64,000 bases of DNA, from assembly GCA_027079305.1 (NCBI GenBank), contig JALWVU010000075.1:1-64000 (forward strand). Direction: 5' to 3'. The notes under the pieces are model-generated. The model made no database searches. It was not told the origin of the DNA and worked only from the letters and a program-made list of their open reading frames with translations. This DNA comes from Aquificaceae bacterium (lineage in GTDB: Bacteria; Aquificota; Aquificia; Aquificales; Aquificaceae). The position numbers and the translations under genes were made by a program. Below, one piece after another: positions 5,585 through 19,185 of this stretch (the stretch's first letter is position 1; every line of letters begins with the position of its first letter).

Positions 5585-6477
5585 AGCCTTATCCTTCTCT
5601 TAACTATCTCCTTAACCTCCTCCATGGCTGGCTTGAAGAACTTTCTGGGGTCTATGTTCCCTTTCTCCTCGCTCATTATCCTCCTCAGAGTCGCGACGAA
5701 GGCGAGCCTAAGGTCCGTGTCCGTGTTCACCTTGTTTATGCCGAGCTCCACCGCCCTCCTTACGTCCTCATCGGGCACTCCCTTTGCATCCTTTATCTCC
5801 CCTCCGAAGGTGTTTATCTCGTTAACGTATTCGTAGTAAACTCCCGAGGCCCCGTGGAGGACGAGGGGCATGTTGGTCAGCTCCTTGACCTTTCTGAGCC
5901 TCTCGAAGTCCAGCCTGGCCTCGCCTTTGAACTTGAAGGCACCGTGGGCTGTTCCTATCGCCGGGGCGAGGGCATCCACACCGGTTCTCAGGGCGAACTC
6001 CTTGGCCTGCTCGGGATCGACGAGAAGCTCCTCCTCGCTCTCGACGTTGTCCTCGATCCCCACGAGCCTCCCGAGCTCCGCCTCCACCGAGATCCCGAGG
6101 GGAGCGCACAGGGAAACCACCTTCCTCGTTATCTCAAGATTCTCCTCGTAGGGCCTGTCCGAGAGGTCTATCATCACGGAGGTGTAGCCGTGCCTTATGG
6201 CCAAAAGAACGGTGTCCAGGCTCCTTCCGTGATCCAGATGGAGGGCGAAGGGGACCCTGAACTCATCCTTCACCGCGTGGACCATGCCTGCGAGGAACTC
6301 GATCCCCGCATACCTTAGGGCGCTCTCGGTGGTCTGGAGGAAAACGGGGGCCTCTTCCTCTTCCGCCGCCTCCAGGATGGCTTTGAGAAATTCCATGTTG
6401 TTAAAGTTGAAGGCTCCCACCGCAAAGCCGGACTCGTTGGCCTTCTCGAAGAGGACCTTCCCAGAAAGCAGAGGCAT
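5548..6477 (-). CDS. fba: Class II fructose-bisphosphate aldolase
   Basis: A 309-aa zinc-dependent aldolase of glycolysis and gluconeogenesis. Metal-ligand and active-site motifs are in order: ALHLDHGRS, SVMIDLSDRPYEEN, VEAELGRL, IGTAHGAFKF, LVLHGASGV and the C-terminal NTDTDLRLAF. The protein ends in the usual RLYGSSG tail. In autotrophic Aquificales this enzyme works mainly in the gluconeogenic direction (family and pathway knowledge). TAAAAT stands 6 nt before the ATG without a Shine-Dalgarno, so it is probably leaderless and monocistronic. Confidence 0.95.
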   Translation of the reverse strand: MPLLSGKVLFEKANESGFAVGAFNFNNMEFLKAILEAAEEEEAPVFLQTTESALRYAGIEFLAGMVHAVKDEFRVPFALHLDHGRSLDTVLLAIRHGYTSVMIDLSDRPYEENLEITRKVVSLCAPLGISVEAELGRLVGIEDNVESEEELLVDPEQAKEFALRTGVDALAPAIGTAHGAFKFKGEARLDFERLRKVKELTNMPLVLHGASGVYYEYVNEINTFGGEIKDAKGVPDEDVRRAVELGINKVNTDTDLRLAFVATLRRIMSEEKGNIDPRKFFKPAMEEVKEIVKRRIRLYGSSGMASLFL

Positions 6478-6483
6478 GATTTA

Positions 6484-6489
6484 ATTTTA
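6484..6489 (-). promoter_or_regulatory. -10 box of fba (leaderless pattern)
   Basis: Minus-strand TAAAAT, then TAAATC, then the ATG of fba. The 6-nt distance puts the transcription start on the start codon. Confidence 0.55.
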
Positions 6490-6541
6490 TGTGAACTCGA
6501 TCACCCCAGAAAGATCAGCCCAGTTTAGATTATTAAGTTCC

Positions 6542-7729
6542 ATGGCTACTAAGCTCGTTATACCGGAGGATCTCGTTCTTAAGTGCGTCAAGTGTGGTCT
6601 GTGTAAATCCGTCTGCCCTTCATACCATGGCGAGGAGGGAAGTTACGCGAGGGGCAGGCTCGCCCTTGCGGAGATGGTGGCCAGAGGAGAGATCCCCCTG
6701 AACGAGGAGGTCGCCTCCCAGTGGAACGAGTGTGCCATGTGCAGGCGCTGTGAGTGGATCTGCCCTAACGACGTCCAGTATAAGGAGGTTCTCATCCAGG
6801 CGAGGGAGCTTCAGGAGAAGGAACTCGGGAGGGATTTCGTTTCCAGAATGGGCCTCAAGAGTCTCGAGTTCATGCAGTCGGATCTGGGCCGTAAGGTCAT
6901 AAAGCTGGCGGGAAAGCTGAGCTCCCTTCTGCCTTCCGAGATAAAAACACCCTTGCCAACGGGGACGGTCAAGTTCATGCCAAAGCCCGACGGGAAACCC
7001 TTCGGAATAAGGGGAAAGACCTTCAGGGCTGAGAAGGAAAAGGGCAGGCTACTTTTCTTTACAGGTTGCATGATAGATGTCTTCTACGGAAAGACGGGAG
7101 AGAGCGTTGTCAAGCTCATGAACAAACTCGGCTACACGGTGGTGGTTCCGGAGGATATAAAGTGTTGCGGAGCACCTCACCTATACCACGGAAACAGGGA
7201 GGCCTTTGAGAAGCTGAAGGATCACAACCTGAGGGAAATGGAAAGATACGAGTTCGATGCGGTAGTGGTGGCCTGCCCCACCTGCGGGGGAGCACTGACC
7301 GAGGACTATGGTAAGAACTGGAAGGTATACGACTTTGCGGAGCTTATATTCAAAGAGCAGGAAAATCCGAGGTTCAAGACCGCCAACGAGAAACTCACCT
7401 TCCACGTTCCGTGCCACTCTTATACCGCCATGAGGGTCGATCCCAAGGTCTTTTACGGGGTTATGGAGAGGGTAGAAGGTGCGGAGGTGGTCAGGGCTGA
7501 GAAAGCCCAGTCCTGCTGTGGCTTTGCGGGACTATGGAGCATAAAGAATCCCGAGCTTTCTGAAAAGGTCCAGAGAGAAAAAGTGGAAGATTTTGAAAGG
7601 ACGGGGGCGGATTACATACTCACCACGTGTCCGGGATGCGTTCTCCAACTTAGGGATGGAGTGAGAAAATTCAAAAACACCCAGAAGGTCATGCATCTGG
7701 CGGACTACCTGGCGGATAGGCTCGAGTAA
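6542..7729 (+). CDS. GlcF/GlpC-like Fe-S oxidoreductase subunit (CCG domains)
   Basis: A 395-aa protein with two N-terminal 4Fe-4S sites, CVKCGLCKSVCP and CAMCRRCEWICP, and two CCG domains in the C-terminal part (CCGAPHLYHG and CCGFAG). This is the layout of the iron-sulfur subunit of glycolate oxidase (GlcF), anaerobic glycerol-3-phosphate dehydrogenase (GlpC) and heterodisulfide-reductase-like systems. No flavoprotein partner lies beside it, so the substrate is open. I start at the ATG giving MATKLVIPEDL. A GTG 17 codons upstream is also in frame. The next gene begins 10 nt downstream. Confidence 0.8.
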   Translation: MATKLVIPEDLVLKCVKCGLCKSVCPSYHGEEGSYARGRLALAEMVARGEIPLNEEVASQWNECAMCRRCEWICPNDVQYKEVLIQARELQEKELGRDFVSRMGLKSLEFMQSDLGRKVIKLAGKLSSLLPSEIKTPLPTGTVKFMPKPDGKPFGIRGKTFRAEKEKGRLLFFTGCMIDVFYGKTGESVVKLMNKLGYTVVVPEDIKCCGAPHLYHGNREAFEKLKDHNLREMERYEFDAVVVACPTCGGALTEDYGKNWKVYDFAELIFKEQENPRFKTANEKLTFHVPCHSYTAMRVDPKVFYGVMERVEGAEVVRAEKAQSCCGFAGLWSIKNPELSEKVQREKVEDFERTGADYILTTCPGCVLQLRDGVRKFKNTQKVMHLADYLADRLE

Positions 7730-7739
7730 ACTAAGATCT

Positions 7740-8087
7740 ATGGGCGAAAAGCTCTTCGTCTACGGAACTCTGAAGAGGGGATACGGGAACCACCACTACC
7801 TTTCGGAGAGCGAATTCCTCGGAAAGGCTATCACGAAGGAAAGATACGCCTTATACAGCGACGGCATTCCCTTCCTCGTGAAGGAACCCCCCGTATCGAG
7901 GATAAAGGGGGAGCTTTACGAGGTGGACTCGGAAACTCTCGAAAGCGTAGATCTCCTCGAAGGGCACCCATCCGTATACAGGAGGGAGAAGATAGTGGTC
8001 ATCCTTGAAGATGGAAGGGAGGTAGAAGCCTGGGCTTACTTTTACCCACATCCGCGGGGAGAGTTGCTGAGGTCGGGTGAGTTCTGA
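7740..8087 (+). CDS. Gamma-glutamylcyclotransferase-like protein (GGCT/YtfP family)
   Basis: A 115-aa single-domain protein. FVYGTLKRGYGNHHYL forms the substrate loop, and VDLLEGHPSVYRR carries the conserved acidic residue followed by the Tyr-Arg strand of the AIG2/GGCT fold. The family cyclises gamma-glutamyl groups or acts in repair of modified residues; the exact substrate is unknown here. A TAAACT box 7 nt before the ATG could give it its own leaderless transcript, although it also sits right behind the GlcF-like gene. Confidence 0.8.
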   Translation: MGEKLFVYGTLKRGYGNHHYLSESEFLGKAITKERYALYSDGIPFLVKEPPVSRIKGELYEVDSETLESVDLLEGHPSVYRREKIVVILEDGREVEAWAYFYPHPRGELLRSGEF

Positions 8088-8088
8088 A

Positions 8089-9066
8089 TTACCTTCTGAA
8101 GCGTCTAAGTTTCCTCACGTTCTTCCTGTGCTGGGCATACGTTGTGCTGAAGATGTGTCTCCGGGTCTTCGGATCTACCACAAAGTAAAGATACCTGACC
8201 TTGGCGGGACGAAGAGCTGCCCAGAGGGAGGTAAGACCGGGGTTGCAGATGGGAGTTGGAGGAAGTCCAAAGTATAGGTAGGTATTGTAGGGGTCGTCTA
8301 TCTGGAGATCCTCCTTGGTGAGCTTCCCGTCCCACATACCTTTTCTCTTAAGGGCGTATATGACTGTCGGGTCTATCTGAAGCTTCATCCTCTCCCTCAA
8401 CCTGTTGTATATGACCGCGGCGATCATAGGTTTTTCATCTTCCCAGAAGGTCTCCTTCTCCACCATCGAGGCTACGGTCACAAGCTCCTCTATGGGAATT
8501 CCCTTCTCCGCAGCCTCTTTCCTTATGGCCACCGTCTTCTTAAGGAAGTTCCTATACATGGTGTCTATCACCCTGAGTGGGTGTGTGTTCTTGGAGAAGA
8601 AGTAGGTATCCGGGAAGAGAAAGCCTTCCATGGTGGGCGTAGACAGGCCGTAGCTCCGGGGAACACTCTCGTCGGTCGCGTATCTCAGGAAGTCCTCCGC
8701 CCTGCAAACACCCTCCCTCTCTAAGATCCTGGCGATGTCGTAAATATCGCTACCCTCCACCACAACGACCCTGTGGAGTTTGTGGAGTCCCTTGGAGAGC
8801 TTCTCGTAAACGTCGAAGGGTGTTACATAGCCCCCGAACTCGTACTCGCCCGCCTCAAGTTTGGACTTCCGGAGGACGTGGATCACTATGAGGGATAGCC
8901 TGCTCCTTACAATTCCCTCTTCGTGGAGAATCTCAAATATTTTCAGCGTGGGCGTGCCGTAAGGTATTTCGATAGTTTTCCGGGGTATGTAAACGGGAAG
9001 GAAGGCGTAGGAAAGATACAAAAGACCGATGAAGAAAAGGACAGAGGCGAGGAGTATCTTCTTCAT
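8089..9066 (-). CDS. mltG: Endolytic murein transglycosylase MltG
   Basis: A 325-aa inner-membrane enzyme that cuts nascent peptidoglycan strands. One N-terminal membrane segment (about residues 3-22) is followed by a LysM-like region and the YceG catalytic domain with VEKETFWEDEK, whose first Glu corresponds to the catalytic residue, then AAVIYNRL and LQIDPTVIYAL. The tail after YLYFVVDP is short. The ATG overlaps the ruvX stop as ATGA. It ends 1 nt from the convergent GGCT gene. Confidence 0.93.
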   Translation of the reverse strand: MKKILLASVLFFIGLLYLSYAFLPVYIPRKTIEIPYGTPTLKIFEILHEEGIVRSRLSLIVIHVLRKSKLEAGEYEFGGYVTPFDVYEKLSKGLHKLHRVVVVEGSDIYDIARILEREGVCRAEDFLRYATDESVPRSYGLSTPTMEGFLFPDTYFFSKNTHPLRVIDTMYRNFLKKTVAIRKEAAEKGIPIEELVTVASMVEKETFWEDEKPMIAAVIYNRLRERMKLQIDPTVIYALKRKGMWDGKLTKEDLQIDDPYNTYLYFGLPPTPICNPGLTSLWAALRPAKVRYLYFVVDPKTRRHIFSTTYAQHRKNVRKLRRFRR

Positions 9067-9446
9067 AAGCTACTGAGGTATTCCTCGAGTATTATCTGGG
9101 CGGCCACCGCGTCCAAATCTTCTCTACGTTTCCCAACTCTTCGGAGGGCCTCCTGGGTGGTATAGCGTTCGTCCCAGAGAAGTACCTCGATCCCGGGCAG
9201 GAGTTCCTTCAATCTACCTACGAAGTCCCTGACCGCCTTTGCCCTCTGCCCCTCCCTGCCGGAGGGTGTCAAAGGTAAGCCCACGATTACCTTCTTTACT
9301 CCACTCTCCAAAGCGGTAGACCTTATCCGTTCCAGAAGGCGATCGTCGTTCTTTATCACACCCTTGGGAACAGCTATCTTAAGTTCAGTGTCACCTACCG
9401 CGAGGCCTACTCTCTTTTCCCCGTAGTCTATGGAAAGGACCTTCAA
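9063..9446 (-). CDS. ruvX: RuvX/YqgF-type Holliday-junction resolvase-like nuclease
   Basis: Predicted RNase-H-fold nuclease implicated in Holliday-junction resolution and 16S rRNA 5'-end maturation. Motifs are SIDYGEKRVGLAVGD, VGLPLTPSGREG, LLWDERYTTQEA and DAVAAQIILEEYL. I start at the TTG (MKVLSIDYG) that overlaps the preceding gene's stop as TTGA, which gives 127 aa, close to the family length. The longer reading frame upstream only reads through the preceding gene. It is coupled to mltG by ATGA. Confidence 0.88.
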   Translation of the reverse strand: MKVLSIDYGEKRVGLAVGDTELKIAVPKGVIKNDDRLLERIRSTALESGVKKVIVGLPLTPSGREGQRAKAVRDFVGRLKELLPGIEVLLWDERYTTQEALRRVGKRREDLDAVAAQIILEEYLSSL

Positions 9447-9637
9447 GACTCGGACAAGGTCTTGAAACCCACCACCTTGTAGAGGGGACAGAAACCTATC
9501 GCGGAGGTTATGATGAATACTATCCCTATTATCCCCAGTATCCACCAGGCTCCCCCGTTCTTTACCGCGAGGGCGATGAATACGATTGCGAGGATTACCC
9601 TCACTATCCTGTCCCAGGACGCCATATTCTTTTCCAT
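9443..9637 (-). CDS. DUF2892 (YgaP-like) small membrane protein
   Basis: A 64-aa protein starting MEKNMASWDRIVR, with two membrane helices (about residues 12-30 and 33-50) and a short C-terminal FCPLYKVVGFKT stretch. This is the DUF2892 domain, found alone or fused to rhodaneses; its function is unknown. The Shine-Dalgarno GGAGGGA precedes the chosen ATG. The open frame extends further upstream but there it only translates tRNA-Ser. It ends in a TTGA overlap with ruvX. Confidence 0.8.
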   Translation of the reverse strand: MEKNMASWDRIVRVILAIVFIALAVKNGGAWWILGIIGIVFIITSAIGFCPLYKVVGFKTLSES

Positions 9638-9672
9638 GGCTCTTCCCTCCTCACAAGGATTATAAAGGATTC

Positions 9673-9764
9673 TGGCGGAAGGGGAGGGATTCGAACCCTC
9701 GGTGCCCGAAACCGGGCACACGGCGTTTCCAGCGCCGCGCCTTCGTCCGCTCGGCCACCCTTCC
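9673..9764 (-). tRNA. tRNA-Ser (anticodon GGA)
   Basis: The minus strand folds into a class II tRNA. The acceptor is GGAAGGG paired with CCCTTCC, the anticodon loop is GGCGCTGGAAACGCC, the long variable arm is GTGCCCGGTTTCGGGCAC and the T loop is GGTTCGAATCC. The discriminator is G and the CCA is encoded. A TATAAT box lies 13 nt upstream. Confidence 0.96.
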
Positions 9765-9777
9765 TCAGGACTTAATA

Positions 9778-9783
9778 ATTATA
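9778..9783 (-). promoter_or_regulatory. -10 box of tRNA-Ser
   Basis: TATAAT on the minus strand, 13 nt before the mature tRNA 5' end and directly behind the stop codon of the exonuclease gene. Confidence 0.5.
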
Positions 9784-9788
9784 ATCTC

Positions 9789-10514
9789 TCAGGGGGTCAA
9801 ACCCAAGGCCTCGCCGAGGGTTTCCACGAGCCTCTCGTAAAGCCTTCCCGTCGCGAGGATATCGTAGAAGTTGTAAAGGGCTATCTCCCTGTATTTCCCT
9901 TCCAAGAACTTTTCGTTTACCTCTTCCGCCTTCATAAACTTTTTGGGAGTATCTATCCCGAGCCTTCTGCAGAGGAAGTCCAAAGAGTAGAGCCTTCCGA
10001 CACCATGGAAGGAGAGAAGGTCAAGTATGTCCAGGTGACTGCCGTAATCGTATCTGTTTCCCATCAGGCTCCTCGTCGCCTTCACGCCCAGCATAAGGGA
10101 CTTTAGCATTAAAAAGTGGGAATCGAAGCCCCTCCCGTTGAAGCTGACAAGTCTCCCAACGCTCCTGCTTGAAACGACTCTCCAGAACTCCTCGAGAATC
10201 CTCCTCTCCGCCTCTTCTATACCCTCCGAAAGGGGAAAGGATCTGAACCTGACCTCCACACCGTCCACGTCCTCCACTTCTTCACCTTCTTCATCTCCCA
10301 CGTAGAGGACGAGGGCTCTCTTCTTTTCCAAAAGGAACATCCCCACGCTCACCAAGTGGGCTGTGAGGGCCCAGAAGCTCATCATACCCCTTATCTTCTC
10401 TCTCTTCTCCTCACTGTCCGCCCTTTTGAACAGATACTCAAGTTCCTCTTCGGAGAGGTTCTCCTCCCTCGTTGGGACCGTCTCTATATCAAAGATGAGT
10501 GTGTAGCGCCCCAT
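9789..10514 (-). CDS. Predicted DEDDy 3'-5' exonuclease (PolB-exonuclease-like)
   Basis: A 241-aa RNase-H-like exonuclease related to the proofreading domain of family B polymerases (COG3298-type). Exo I is LIFDIETVP at residues 6-14, Exo II is SFNGRGFDSHFL near 120-131, and Exo III is YNFYDILAT near 215 with the Tyr of DEDDy. Family members occur without a polymerase domain and are probably DNA repair nucleases. TATAAT 7 nt before the ATG, with no Shine-Dalgarno, predicts a leaderless mRNA. The -10 box overlaps that of trkH on the other strand. Confidence 0.8.
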   Translation of the reverse strand: MGRYTLIFDIETVPTREENLSEEELEYLFKRADSEEKREKIRGMMSFWALTAHLVSVGMFLLEKKRALVLYVGDEEGEEVEDVDGVEVRFRSFPLSEGIEEAERRILEEFWRVVSSRSVGRLVSFNGRGFDSHFLMLKSLMLGVKATRSLMGNRYDYGSHLDILDLLSFHGVGRLYSLDFLCRRLGIDTPKKFMKAEEVNEKFLEGKYREIALYNFYDILATGRLYERLVETLGEALGLTP

Positions 10515-17704: not shown

Positions 17705-18241
17705 ATGAGAGTGATTCTCGCCTCCCTCCTGCTGGCCCTAGGAATATTCTCCTTCTCCGAGGAGAGGGACTTCACAACCCCCGAAAAGGTTCTGGGAAAG
17801 CTCTACCCCGGAGCGGAGGTGGAGGTAAAGAACATAGTTCTCACAAAGGAGCAGCAGAAGAAGATAGAAAAGCTGGCGAGGGCGAGGATCCCCTCGAGGC
17901 TGGTGTCCCTATACCTCGTGAAGAAAGGTGGGAAAGTCCTCGCCTACGGCTACGTGGACACCCACGTGGTCAGGACCCACACCGAGAGCGTCCTCTTTGT
18001 GATAAGCCCTCAGGGAAGGATAGAGCTTGTGGAGGTTCTGTCCTTCAACGAGCCCTTGGAATACATGGCTGACGAGAACTGGCTGGCCCTTTTCAAGGGG
18101 AAAAGTCTTGACGAGGGCGCCTCCAAGCTCAGGAGGCAGATACCCAACATGACCGGAGCCACGCTCACCGCGAGGGTTATCAAGAAGGCGGCGAGCAGAG
18201 CCCTTGCCATCTGGAAGGTCCTCTTCGGAGGTGGGAGGTGA
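17705..18241 (+). CDS. Secreted FMN-binding domain protein
   Basis: A 178-aa protein with a signal peptide (about residues 1-18, ending near FSFSEE) and an FMN_bind domain. The motif MTGATLTA near residue 152 matches the site where ApbE-type transferases attach FMN covalently to Thr in RnfG, NqrC and NosR relatives. It is thus probably a periplasmic flavoprotein passing electrons to or from a membrane partner. The stop codon overlaps the GTG start of the following membrane-protein gene, so the two are co-translated and likely work together. Confidence 0.75.
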   Translation: MRVILASLLLALGIFSFSEERDFTTPEKVLGKLYPGAEVEVKNIVLTKEQQKKIEKLARARIPSRLVSLYLVKKGGKVLAYGYVDTHVVRTHTESVLFVISPQGRIELVEVLSFNEPLEYMADENWLALFKGKSLDEGASKLRRQIPNMTGATLTARVIKKAASRALAIWKVLFGGGR

Positions 18242-19185
18242 GGTTCTTTATCTCTTCCAACATAAAGAACAACAGGCCCCTCTACTTCACGGTGGTGGTA
18301 TTTCTGCTGTCCGCTCTCCTTTACTGGATAATAAACTGGTTCTTCTACCACACCAAGTTCGGTATAAGCTACGAGAGGATGTTCAGATACTTCTTCACAG
18401 ATCCGGAGTTCCCCGAAAGACTTCCCCTGGGTCAGCTCCTTGAGGACCTTCACATCCAGTTCTTCCTATACATAATCTTTCTGGTGGTTCTCGCCTCCCT
18501 CTTCCTCCACAAGTGCGTCAGGGACACCTTCAAGTACTCCCTCGTGGGCCTCTCCTTCCTCTCAGCCTTCGGAGACACAGCCTCAAGCCTTCTGGTCTAC
18601 TTCCTGGGGCCGGCCTTTATACACTTGAAGATCTTCATGTTTTTCCTCTTCCAGACCTCCACGGGTTTTATGCTCCTGCTCACCTTGAAGCTCTACCTGA
18701 CGAAGGAGAGGGAGGAGCCCCCCGAGAGGTCACTACTCTACTTGATCGTCCTCGTGTTCGCCATCTCCACTATCCTCTTCGCCCTCCTTAACCTCTTCCT
18801 GTTCGTCAGCAAGATGGGGATAACTCCCCAGAGCGTGGCGGGCTACTACGCGGGGGATCCGGAGAGGTTCATCAGGCCAAAGAGCTTAGAGGGAATGCTG
18901 GAGGTTATAAGCCCTCACACGGTAGGGATGGGCGTATACCTCTTTGCCCTCGTTCACTTTGCTTTCTTCACCAATCTGAAAAGGAAGGTCTTCCTGAGCC
19001 TTATAACTCTCTCCTCCGCCCTCGTGGACAACTTCTCCCCCCTGCTCATAAGGTTTTTAAGTCCCGAGTTCTCCTACCTGAAGCTCCTTTCCTTCCTGAC
19101 ACTCACCTTCTCCATGTTCTTTATCTCGGGTGCTGTAATAGTCTCCATACTCAGGCACAGGGCAAAGACGATCCTCTACATCTGA
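18238..19185 (+). CDS. Membrane protein with two tandem four-helix repeats
   Basis: A 315-aa protein of unrecognised family starting at a GTG that overlaps the FMN-binding gene. It has about eight membrane helices arranged as an internal duplication. Residues 15-155 and 168-305 share the order helix, FGI/MGI, a Tyr-Tyr/Phe-x-x-Asp-Pro-Glu loop, LLEDLH or MLEVISPH, helix ending in His, and a FLGPAFIHLKI / FLSPEFSYLKL segment. His72/His91 and His227/His240 occur at matching places and could be heme ligands (inference). It is likely the membrane partner of the secreted flavoprotein. The 3' end overlaps argH by 10 nt. Confidence 0.6.
   Translation: MRFFISSNIKNNRPLYFTVVVFLLSALLYWIINWFFYHTKFGISYERMFRYFFTDPEFPERLPLGQLLEDLHIQFFLYIIFLVVLASLFLHKCVRDTFKYSLVGLSFLSAFGDTASSLLVYFLGPAFIHLKIFMFFLFQTSTGFMLLLTLKLYLTKEREEPPERSLLYLIVLVFAISTILFALLNLFLFVSKMGITPQSVAGYYAGDPERFIRPKSLEGMLEVISPHTVGMGVYLFALVHFAFFTNLKRKVFLSLITLSSALVDNFSPLLIRFLSPEFSYLKLLSFLTLTFSMFFISGAVIVSILRHRAKTILYI

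Follow-up and report, generated by a model that had tools for sequence, protein, structure and literature searches.

A gene for an exported FMN-binding protein and the gene directly behind it, both found in a 64,000-nucleotide stretch of an Aquificaceae genome (the whole stretch is called the window below), encode what is likely, with a probability of roughly 0.55, to be the inner-membrane and periplasmic part of an Aquificota envelope electron-transfer system, in which an eight-helix membrane protein would exchange electrons between quinone and FMN. The membrane protein represents a conserved, real family, apparently without a published description as far as we found. It is built by internal duplication and carries strictly conserved residues, and its gene is paired with that of the FMN-binding protein, co-occurs with a set of partner genes across related genomes and is linked to them in operons.

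The gene pair and its exported FMN-binding protein

The first gene of the pair (Table 1) encodes a protein whose residues 96-167 match the Pfam domain FMN_bind (PF04205; E 9.8e-6, 26.6 bits against a curated cutoff of 22). By inspection, the N-terminus is hydrophobic and signal-like, and a signal peptide is predicted at about residues 1-18. Judging from the motif, Thr153 occupies the FMN-acceptor place of the S/T-G-A-T type and is the predicted flavinylation site. This Thr is kept in 61 of 62 homologues, where G151 and A152 are conserved as well. H87, R90, T91, E94, E116, P117, E119, Y120 and W126 are invariant.

The GTG start codon of the membrane-protein gene (18238-18240) overlaps the TGA stop codon of the FMN gene (18239-18241). 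The identical 4-base overlap is present in 46 of 49 relatives, and such an overlap would fit translational coupling of the two genes. The first-pass annotation had described an FMN-binding protein with a TGAT motif and a signal peptide, and a following gene that starts within its stop codon; all of this was borne out. The FMN gene lies directly upstream of every intact membrane-gene homologue with enough upstream contig, and homologues lacking such a neighbour, which the same annotation had named as a refutation of its reading, were not seen among these loci. By inspection, the pair is preceded by an exonuclease-like gene and followed by an argininosuccinate lyase-like gene, both on the minus strand, so that it stands isolated in the genome of the window.

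Table 1. Features of the gene pair, of its partner genes elsewhere in the same genome and of the related proteobacterial operons. Positions without a locus name refer to the window.
Feature	Position	Strand	Basis
Exported FMN-binding protein, 178 aa	17705..18241	+	Pfam PF04205; residue conservation
NMTGAT flavinylation motif codons (aa 148-153; predicted acceptor Thr153)	18146..18163	+	sequence; conservation in homologues
4-base GTGA overlap of FMN gene and membrane gene	18238..18241	+	sequence; relatives
Membrane protein, 315 aa, with eight helices in two homologous halves of four	18238..19185	+	AlphaFold2; no Pfam/NCBIfam/PDB family
Repeat 1, aa 1-159, TM1-4, invariant H72, K131	18238..18714	+	alignment; separate gene in L063-L067, L069, L070, L073-L075
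Repeat 2, aa 161-315, TM5-8, invariant K192, G206, K215, H227, H240, F244, K282	18718..19182	+	alignment; own model
apbE, locus L090 on contig C55	about 9497-10201	-	genome search
Porin, locus L090 on contig C55	about 8016-9317	-	genome search
Di-haem lipoprotein, locus L090 on contig C55	about 6121-7857	-	genome search
Proteobacterial porin-FMN_bind-ApbE-four-His 4TM operons	L094 5719-8847; L097 5644-9105; L100 5848-9371

A duplicated membrane protein

The second gene had been read as two tandem four-helix repeats, and structure prediction and alignment agree with this reading. An AlphaFold2 model built on 39 aligned members (pLDDT 91.8, pTM 0.86) contains eight long helices, at residues 13-40, 64-89, 96-123, 125-154, 164-192, 217-242, 250-273 and 276-314, and two short ones at 45-53 and 197-205; repeat 2 modelled alone reaches a pLDDT of 94.4. 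The two halves are 35% identical over 125 residues (blastp, E 3e-8). Their local alignment score is 138, against 46.9 +/- 9.6 for controls shuffled in 10-residue blocks with the hydropathy profile preserved, and in this shuffle test the duplication signal exceeds z = 3 in 35 of the 39 members. From these comparisons the internal duplication is judged to be real. In the second, or sister, family of the order, 11 loci (L063-L070, L073-L075) have separate four-helix genes in place of the fused one. Both halves were recognised in ten of these, in the gene order FMN, half 1, half 2. The eight-helix protein is a fused pseudo-dimer of a four-helix unit.

Searches of Pfam and NCBIfam over all members of the membrane protein gave no family match, and a sequence search of the PDB gave no match. 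Foldseek against the PDB likewise found no significant fold match, the best E values being 0.32 for the whole protein and 1.5 for repeat 2. Only chance-level matches to helical bundles were obtained; the haem A synthase fold, which ranked third among them (E 0.38, TM 0.23), was not accepted. An Acyl_transf_3 match (E 9.7e-4, in one of two members) was attributed to chance helix composition.

Conserved residues and predicted topology

H72, H227, H240, K131, K192, K215 and K282 never vary among the 39 members, and G206, F135 and F244 are likewise invariant. The first-pass annotation had proposed matching His pairs in the two repeats, 72/91 and 227/240, and only part of this survives. Three of the four residues are invariant, but residue 91 is His in only nine of 39 members and most often Leu. 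Moreover, the pairs do not correspond to each other. In the register of the two second helices (offset 153), read from an ungapped alignment and the helix boundaries of the model (64-89 versus 217-242), H72 stands opposite residue 225 and H227 opposite residue 74, two residues out of register, and H240 corresponds to residue 87. One His pair is therefore not a repeat of the other. The in-register invariant residues common to both halves are K131 and K282 in the fourth helices, which match exactly (offset 151). The stand-alone genes for the second half retain H227, H240 and K282 (invariant H67, H80 and K122 in domain numbering); those for the first half retain H72, and K131 is lost in several.

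Counts of Lys and Arg per loop suggest that the N-terminus, the C-terminus and the loops TM2-3, TM4-5 and TM6-7 are cytoplasmic, although the TM5-6 loop is also basic. From this distribution of charge, H72, H227, K131 and K282 would be close to the periplasm, and H240 would lie toward the cytoplasm.

Partner genes and distribution

A search for apbE in the genome of the window, a check that had been proposed for the pair, found two copies. One lies on another contig, together with genes for a porin and a di-haem lipoprotein (Table 1), so that the system is split over two places in this genome. The same separation is seen in several other genomes of the genus. In more than 20 genomes apbE is near the FMN/membrane pair, and elsewhere it is often unlinked. 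Contiguous operons of apbE, porin, in some cases the di-haem lipoprotein, FMN protein and membrane protein were found; genome G019 (L047), for example, has them all, with apbE first, then porin, di-haem lipoprotein and FMN protein, and the membrane protein last. Elsewhere a member of the operon, not always the same one, is missing, or apbE follows the membrane gene. The porin starts with a coiled coil in its N-terminal part and matches Porin_O_P/OMP weakly; the di-haem cytochrome shows a lipobox-like Cys and two CxxCH motifs. The pair had been called a minimal system; this does not hold, because the gene set also includes apbE, an outer-membrane porin and sometimes a di-haem cytochrome.

Several observations were made around these partners. 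The second apbE of the genome (L091, G000:C65:54000-66000, 7314-9698) adjoins a gene whose product belongs to DUF3570 (PF12094, E 4e-45). Proteins of this class are known ApbE substrates, and the two ApbE copies therefore probably serve two systems. In G064 (L066, 9400-12159) the di-haem frame runs into an OprB-type barrel (PF04966, E 7.6e-29) to give 920 aa, which may be a cytochrome-barrel fusion or a sequencing error. Pseudoalteromonas megaplasmids (L092, L099, L101, at about 6000-7450) encode a homologue of the di-haem lipoprotein with about 31% identity. It was not accepted as the same system, as the L099 copy follows a PhoX phosphatase gene and has no FMN pair. Porin homologues of Manganitrophus and Persicobacter have no clear FMN_bind neighbour.

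The membrane gene was found in 65 of 101 related genomes and, when a domain profile was used, in 71 of 136 Aquificota genomes, so that the system extends through much of the phylum; a single scan of the genome collection gave close relatives only. Among the 101 genomes, ApbE is present in 68, the porin-like protein in 65, FMN_bind in 62 and the di-haem lipoprotein in 23. The membrane gene occurs jointly with ApbE (62 genomes with both, 30 with neither), with FMN_bind (61 and 35) and with the porin (59 and 30), and the p-values of such co-occurrence ignore relatedness and are not to be taken literally. ApbE occurs without the membrane gene in six genomes, and the di-haem gene never does. Since it was detected in only 23 genomes, the di-haem lipoprotein is optional to the system. 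Joint absence of the gene set is seen in several separate groups, namely all five genomes of genus g10, G037 (genus g9), and G062 and G068 (genus g13), and the genomes concerned include ones that are 99-100% complete. In G035 (L072, about 5763-7187), the membrane gene contains several stops and stands beside a fragmentary apbE, a case of joint decay.

Relation to known flavinylation systems

A resemblance to Rnf/NosR-type modules had been suggested for the pair, and it holds for functional logic only. Like RnfG/NqrC and the FMN domains of NosR, the exported protein has an FMN_bind domain with an S/T-G-A-T attachment site. The match of the FMN protein to the full-length RnfG model TIGR01947 (E 8e-4, 19.5 bits) is far under the cutoff of 102, and no NqrB/RnfD homologue (NQR2_RnfD_RnfE) was found in the 101 genomes by a search that was positive in control genomes. 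Membership of Rnf/Nqr was rejected on these grounds. Meheust et al. 2021 (PMC8238504) describe NapH-, MsrQ-, PepSY-, DsbD- and Nqr/Rnf-like classes of membrane protein linked to flavinylation. The Aquificota pair is similar in that an ApbE-dependent FMN_bind protein is encoded with a polytopic membrane partner, but the partner matches none of these families in Pfam searches of the 39 members at E up to 1. Aquificota and porins are unmentioned in the main texts of two flavinylation surveys, and no paper in the literature examined brings Aquificota together with FMN_bind and ApbE, or porin operons together with flavinylation.

Porin-cytochrome conduits such as MtrCAB carry out extracellular electron transfer. 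They share with the Aquificota system an outer-membrane barrel and, in some species of the latter, a c-type lipoprotein. However, the lipoprotein has only two CxxCH motifs, the Aquificota barrel is without haem motifs, a flavoprotein would be the periplasmic carrier, and conduction by the barrel is putative.

A closer counterpart was reached via the porin. On three proteobacterial plasmids, of Ideonella dechloratans, Bradyrhizobium and Methylocystis heyeri, genes for a porin, an FMN_bind protein and ApbE are followed by one for a small membrane protein. The Ideonella and Bradyrhizobium FMN proteins are homologous to those of Aquificota (E 3e-13 and 7e-13), the Methylocystis one was aligned with them, and the Ideonella porin is homologous to the Aquificota porin (E 3e-44). 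Searching plasmids in general by tblastn, with the Aquificota membrane protein, a stand-alone half or the FMN protein as query, had given no match. Four His are invariant in the small membrane protein, whose match to DUF4405 (PF14358) is weak and below the cutoff. Clustering with apbE is known for DUF4405 genes, and haem b binding has been shown for one protein of this family (PMC11334425). Thus, the operon logic of porin, FMN_bind, ApbE and a His-bearing membrane protein is the same, and the operon place of the Aquificota membrane protein is held on these plasmids by a protein that looks cytochrome-like. The two membrane proteins differ: that of Aquificota has two four-helix halves with three invariant His, rather than the four of DUF4405 cytochromes, and invariant Lys, whereas the proteobacterial one is a single four-helix unit. 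Homology between the Aquificota protein and this counterpart was not detectable (hhalign probabilities of 0.2 and 2.5%, nothing by hmmsearch), and the former has no match to PF14358. The proteobacterial loci have copper oxidase, ferritin-like or TonB-receptor genes as neighbours, the Methylocystis copy lying among copper oxidase and ferritin-like genes. No description of this operon was found in the literature examined.

Proposed mechanism and alternatives

The strongest indirect evidence on the role of the Aquificota membrane protein is the presence of a DUF4405-like four-His protein in its place on the plasmids, which leads us to infer a membrane electron-transfer subunit. In the proposed scheme, ApbE would attach FMN to Thr153 of the exported protein, and the eight-helix protein would exchange electrons between the quinone pool and this FMN. 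A b-type haem would most likely be held by two of H72, H227 and H240, with the third serving a second site or quinone. The FMN protein would then pass electrons to or from a periplasmic or extracellular partner via the co-inherited porin and, where a species has it, the di-haem c lipoprotein; the porin may admit an acceptor or hold the lipoprotein. The outward direction is thought likelier. Of the initial idea of a transmembrane electron-transfer pair, the exported FMN protein tied to a duplicated, undescribed membrane protein remains, with electron transfer as its most likely role. The conservation of His is compatible with the class of b-type cytochromes, and a full scheme of two bis-His haems does not fit, since there are three invariant His only and H72 and H227 are out of register. 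Against haem, the membrane protein has no homology to a known haem protein or fold in the PDB, and against the scheme as a whole stand the split repeat-1 genes without K131.

These points bear on an alternative in which the membrane protein is a haem-free quinone oxidoreductase, whose invariant His and Lys would make up a quinone site on the periplasmic side, with electrons passing directly between quinol and covalent FMN and not crossing the membrane. H72, H227, K131, K192, K215 and K282 all lie toward one, predicted periplasmic, side, and both the missing haem fold and the number of invariant His would suit such a site. It is unlikely on balance. Against it, H240, which sits toward the other end of the same helix, is invariant too, and the protein in the same operon position in Proteobacteria has four invariant His, as DUF4405 cytochromes do. 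Rather unlikely as well is that the same relay serves metal handling instead of respiration, the porin admitting a metal complex and the FMN protein reducing the metal in the periplasm for uptake. The neighbours of the homologous proteobacterial loci would agree with such a use, but no conserved metal transporter was seen beside the Aquificota loci inspected, and the di-haem lipoprotein of some species is more in line with electrons moving further outward. A frequent link of flavinylated systems to iron assimilation (PMC8238504) speaks for the metal reading.

The membrane protein might also supply ApbE by carrying FAD or its precursor into the periplasm, without being redox active itself. Its co-occurrence with ApbE and its adjacency to apbE in many genomes accord with a supplier of flavin, and some apbE clusters contain a flavin transporter (PMC11334425). 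This is nevertheless improbable: the membrane gene is tightly linked to the FMN gene, with apbE often elsewhere, six genomes have ApbE and lack the membrane protein, and in Proteobacteria a cytochrome-like protein stands in its position in the operon. Highly improbable is an ion-pumping complex of the Rnf/Nqr kind cut down to two subunits. The weak RnfG match is what would speak for it, whereas NQR2_RnfD_RnfE is lacking from all 101 genomes and the membrane protein matches no Rnf/Nqr family or PDB fold. We retain electron exchange between quinone and FMN by the eight-helix protein as the main explanation.

Implications

Flavinylation-linked electron transfer in the envelope is a recognised class whose membrane partners belong to a small number of families, and one apparently undescribed family is added here. 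The general kind of system is known, and the membrane family is apparently new to it. About two thirds of the related genomes searched have this family, which is tied to an outer-membrane porin and a di-haem lipoprotein. As a tentative possibility, duplication and fusion of a four-helix unit may have given rise to a transmembrane electron carrier of new family and fold, which in Aquificota would stand where DUF4405-type cytochromes are found elsewhere, in a porin-flavoprotein conduit that would connect the quinone pool with the outside of the cell by covalent flavin instead of multihaem cytochromes. The natural split genes offer a ready system for studying the origin of a fused membrane carrier. 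Aquificota are mostly thermophilic chemolithoautotrophs. If the membrane protein carries electrons, they would have a flavin-based route through the envelope, which is directly testable.
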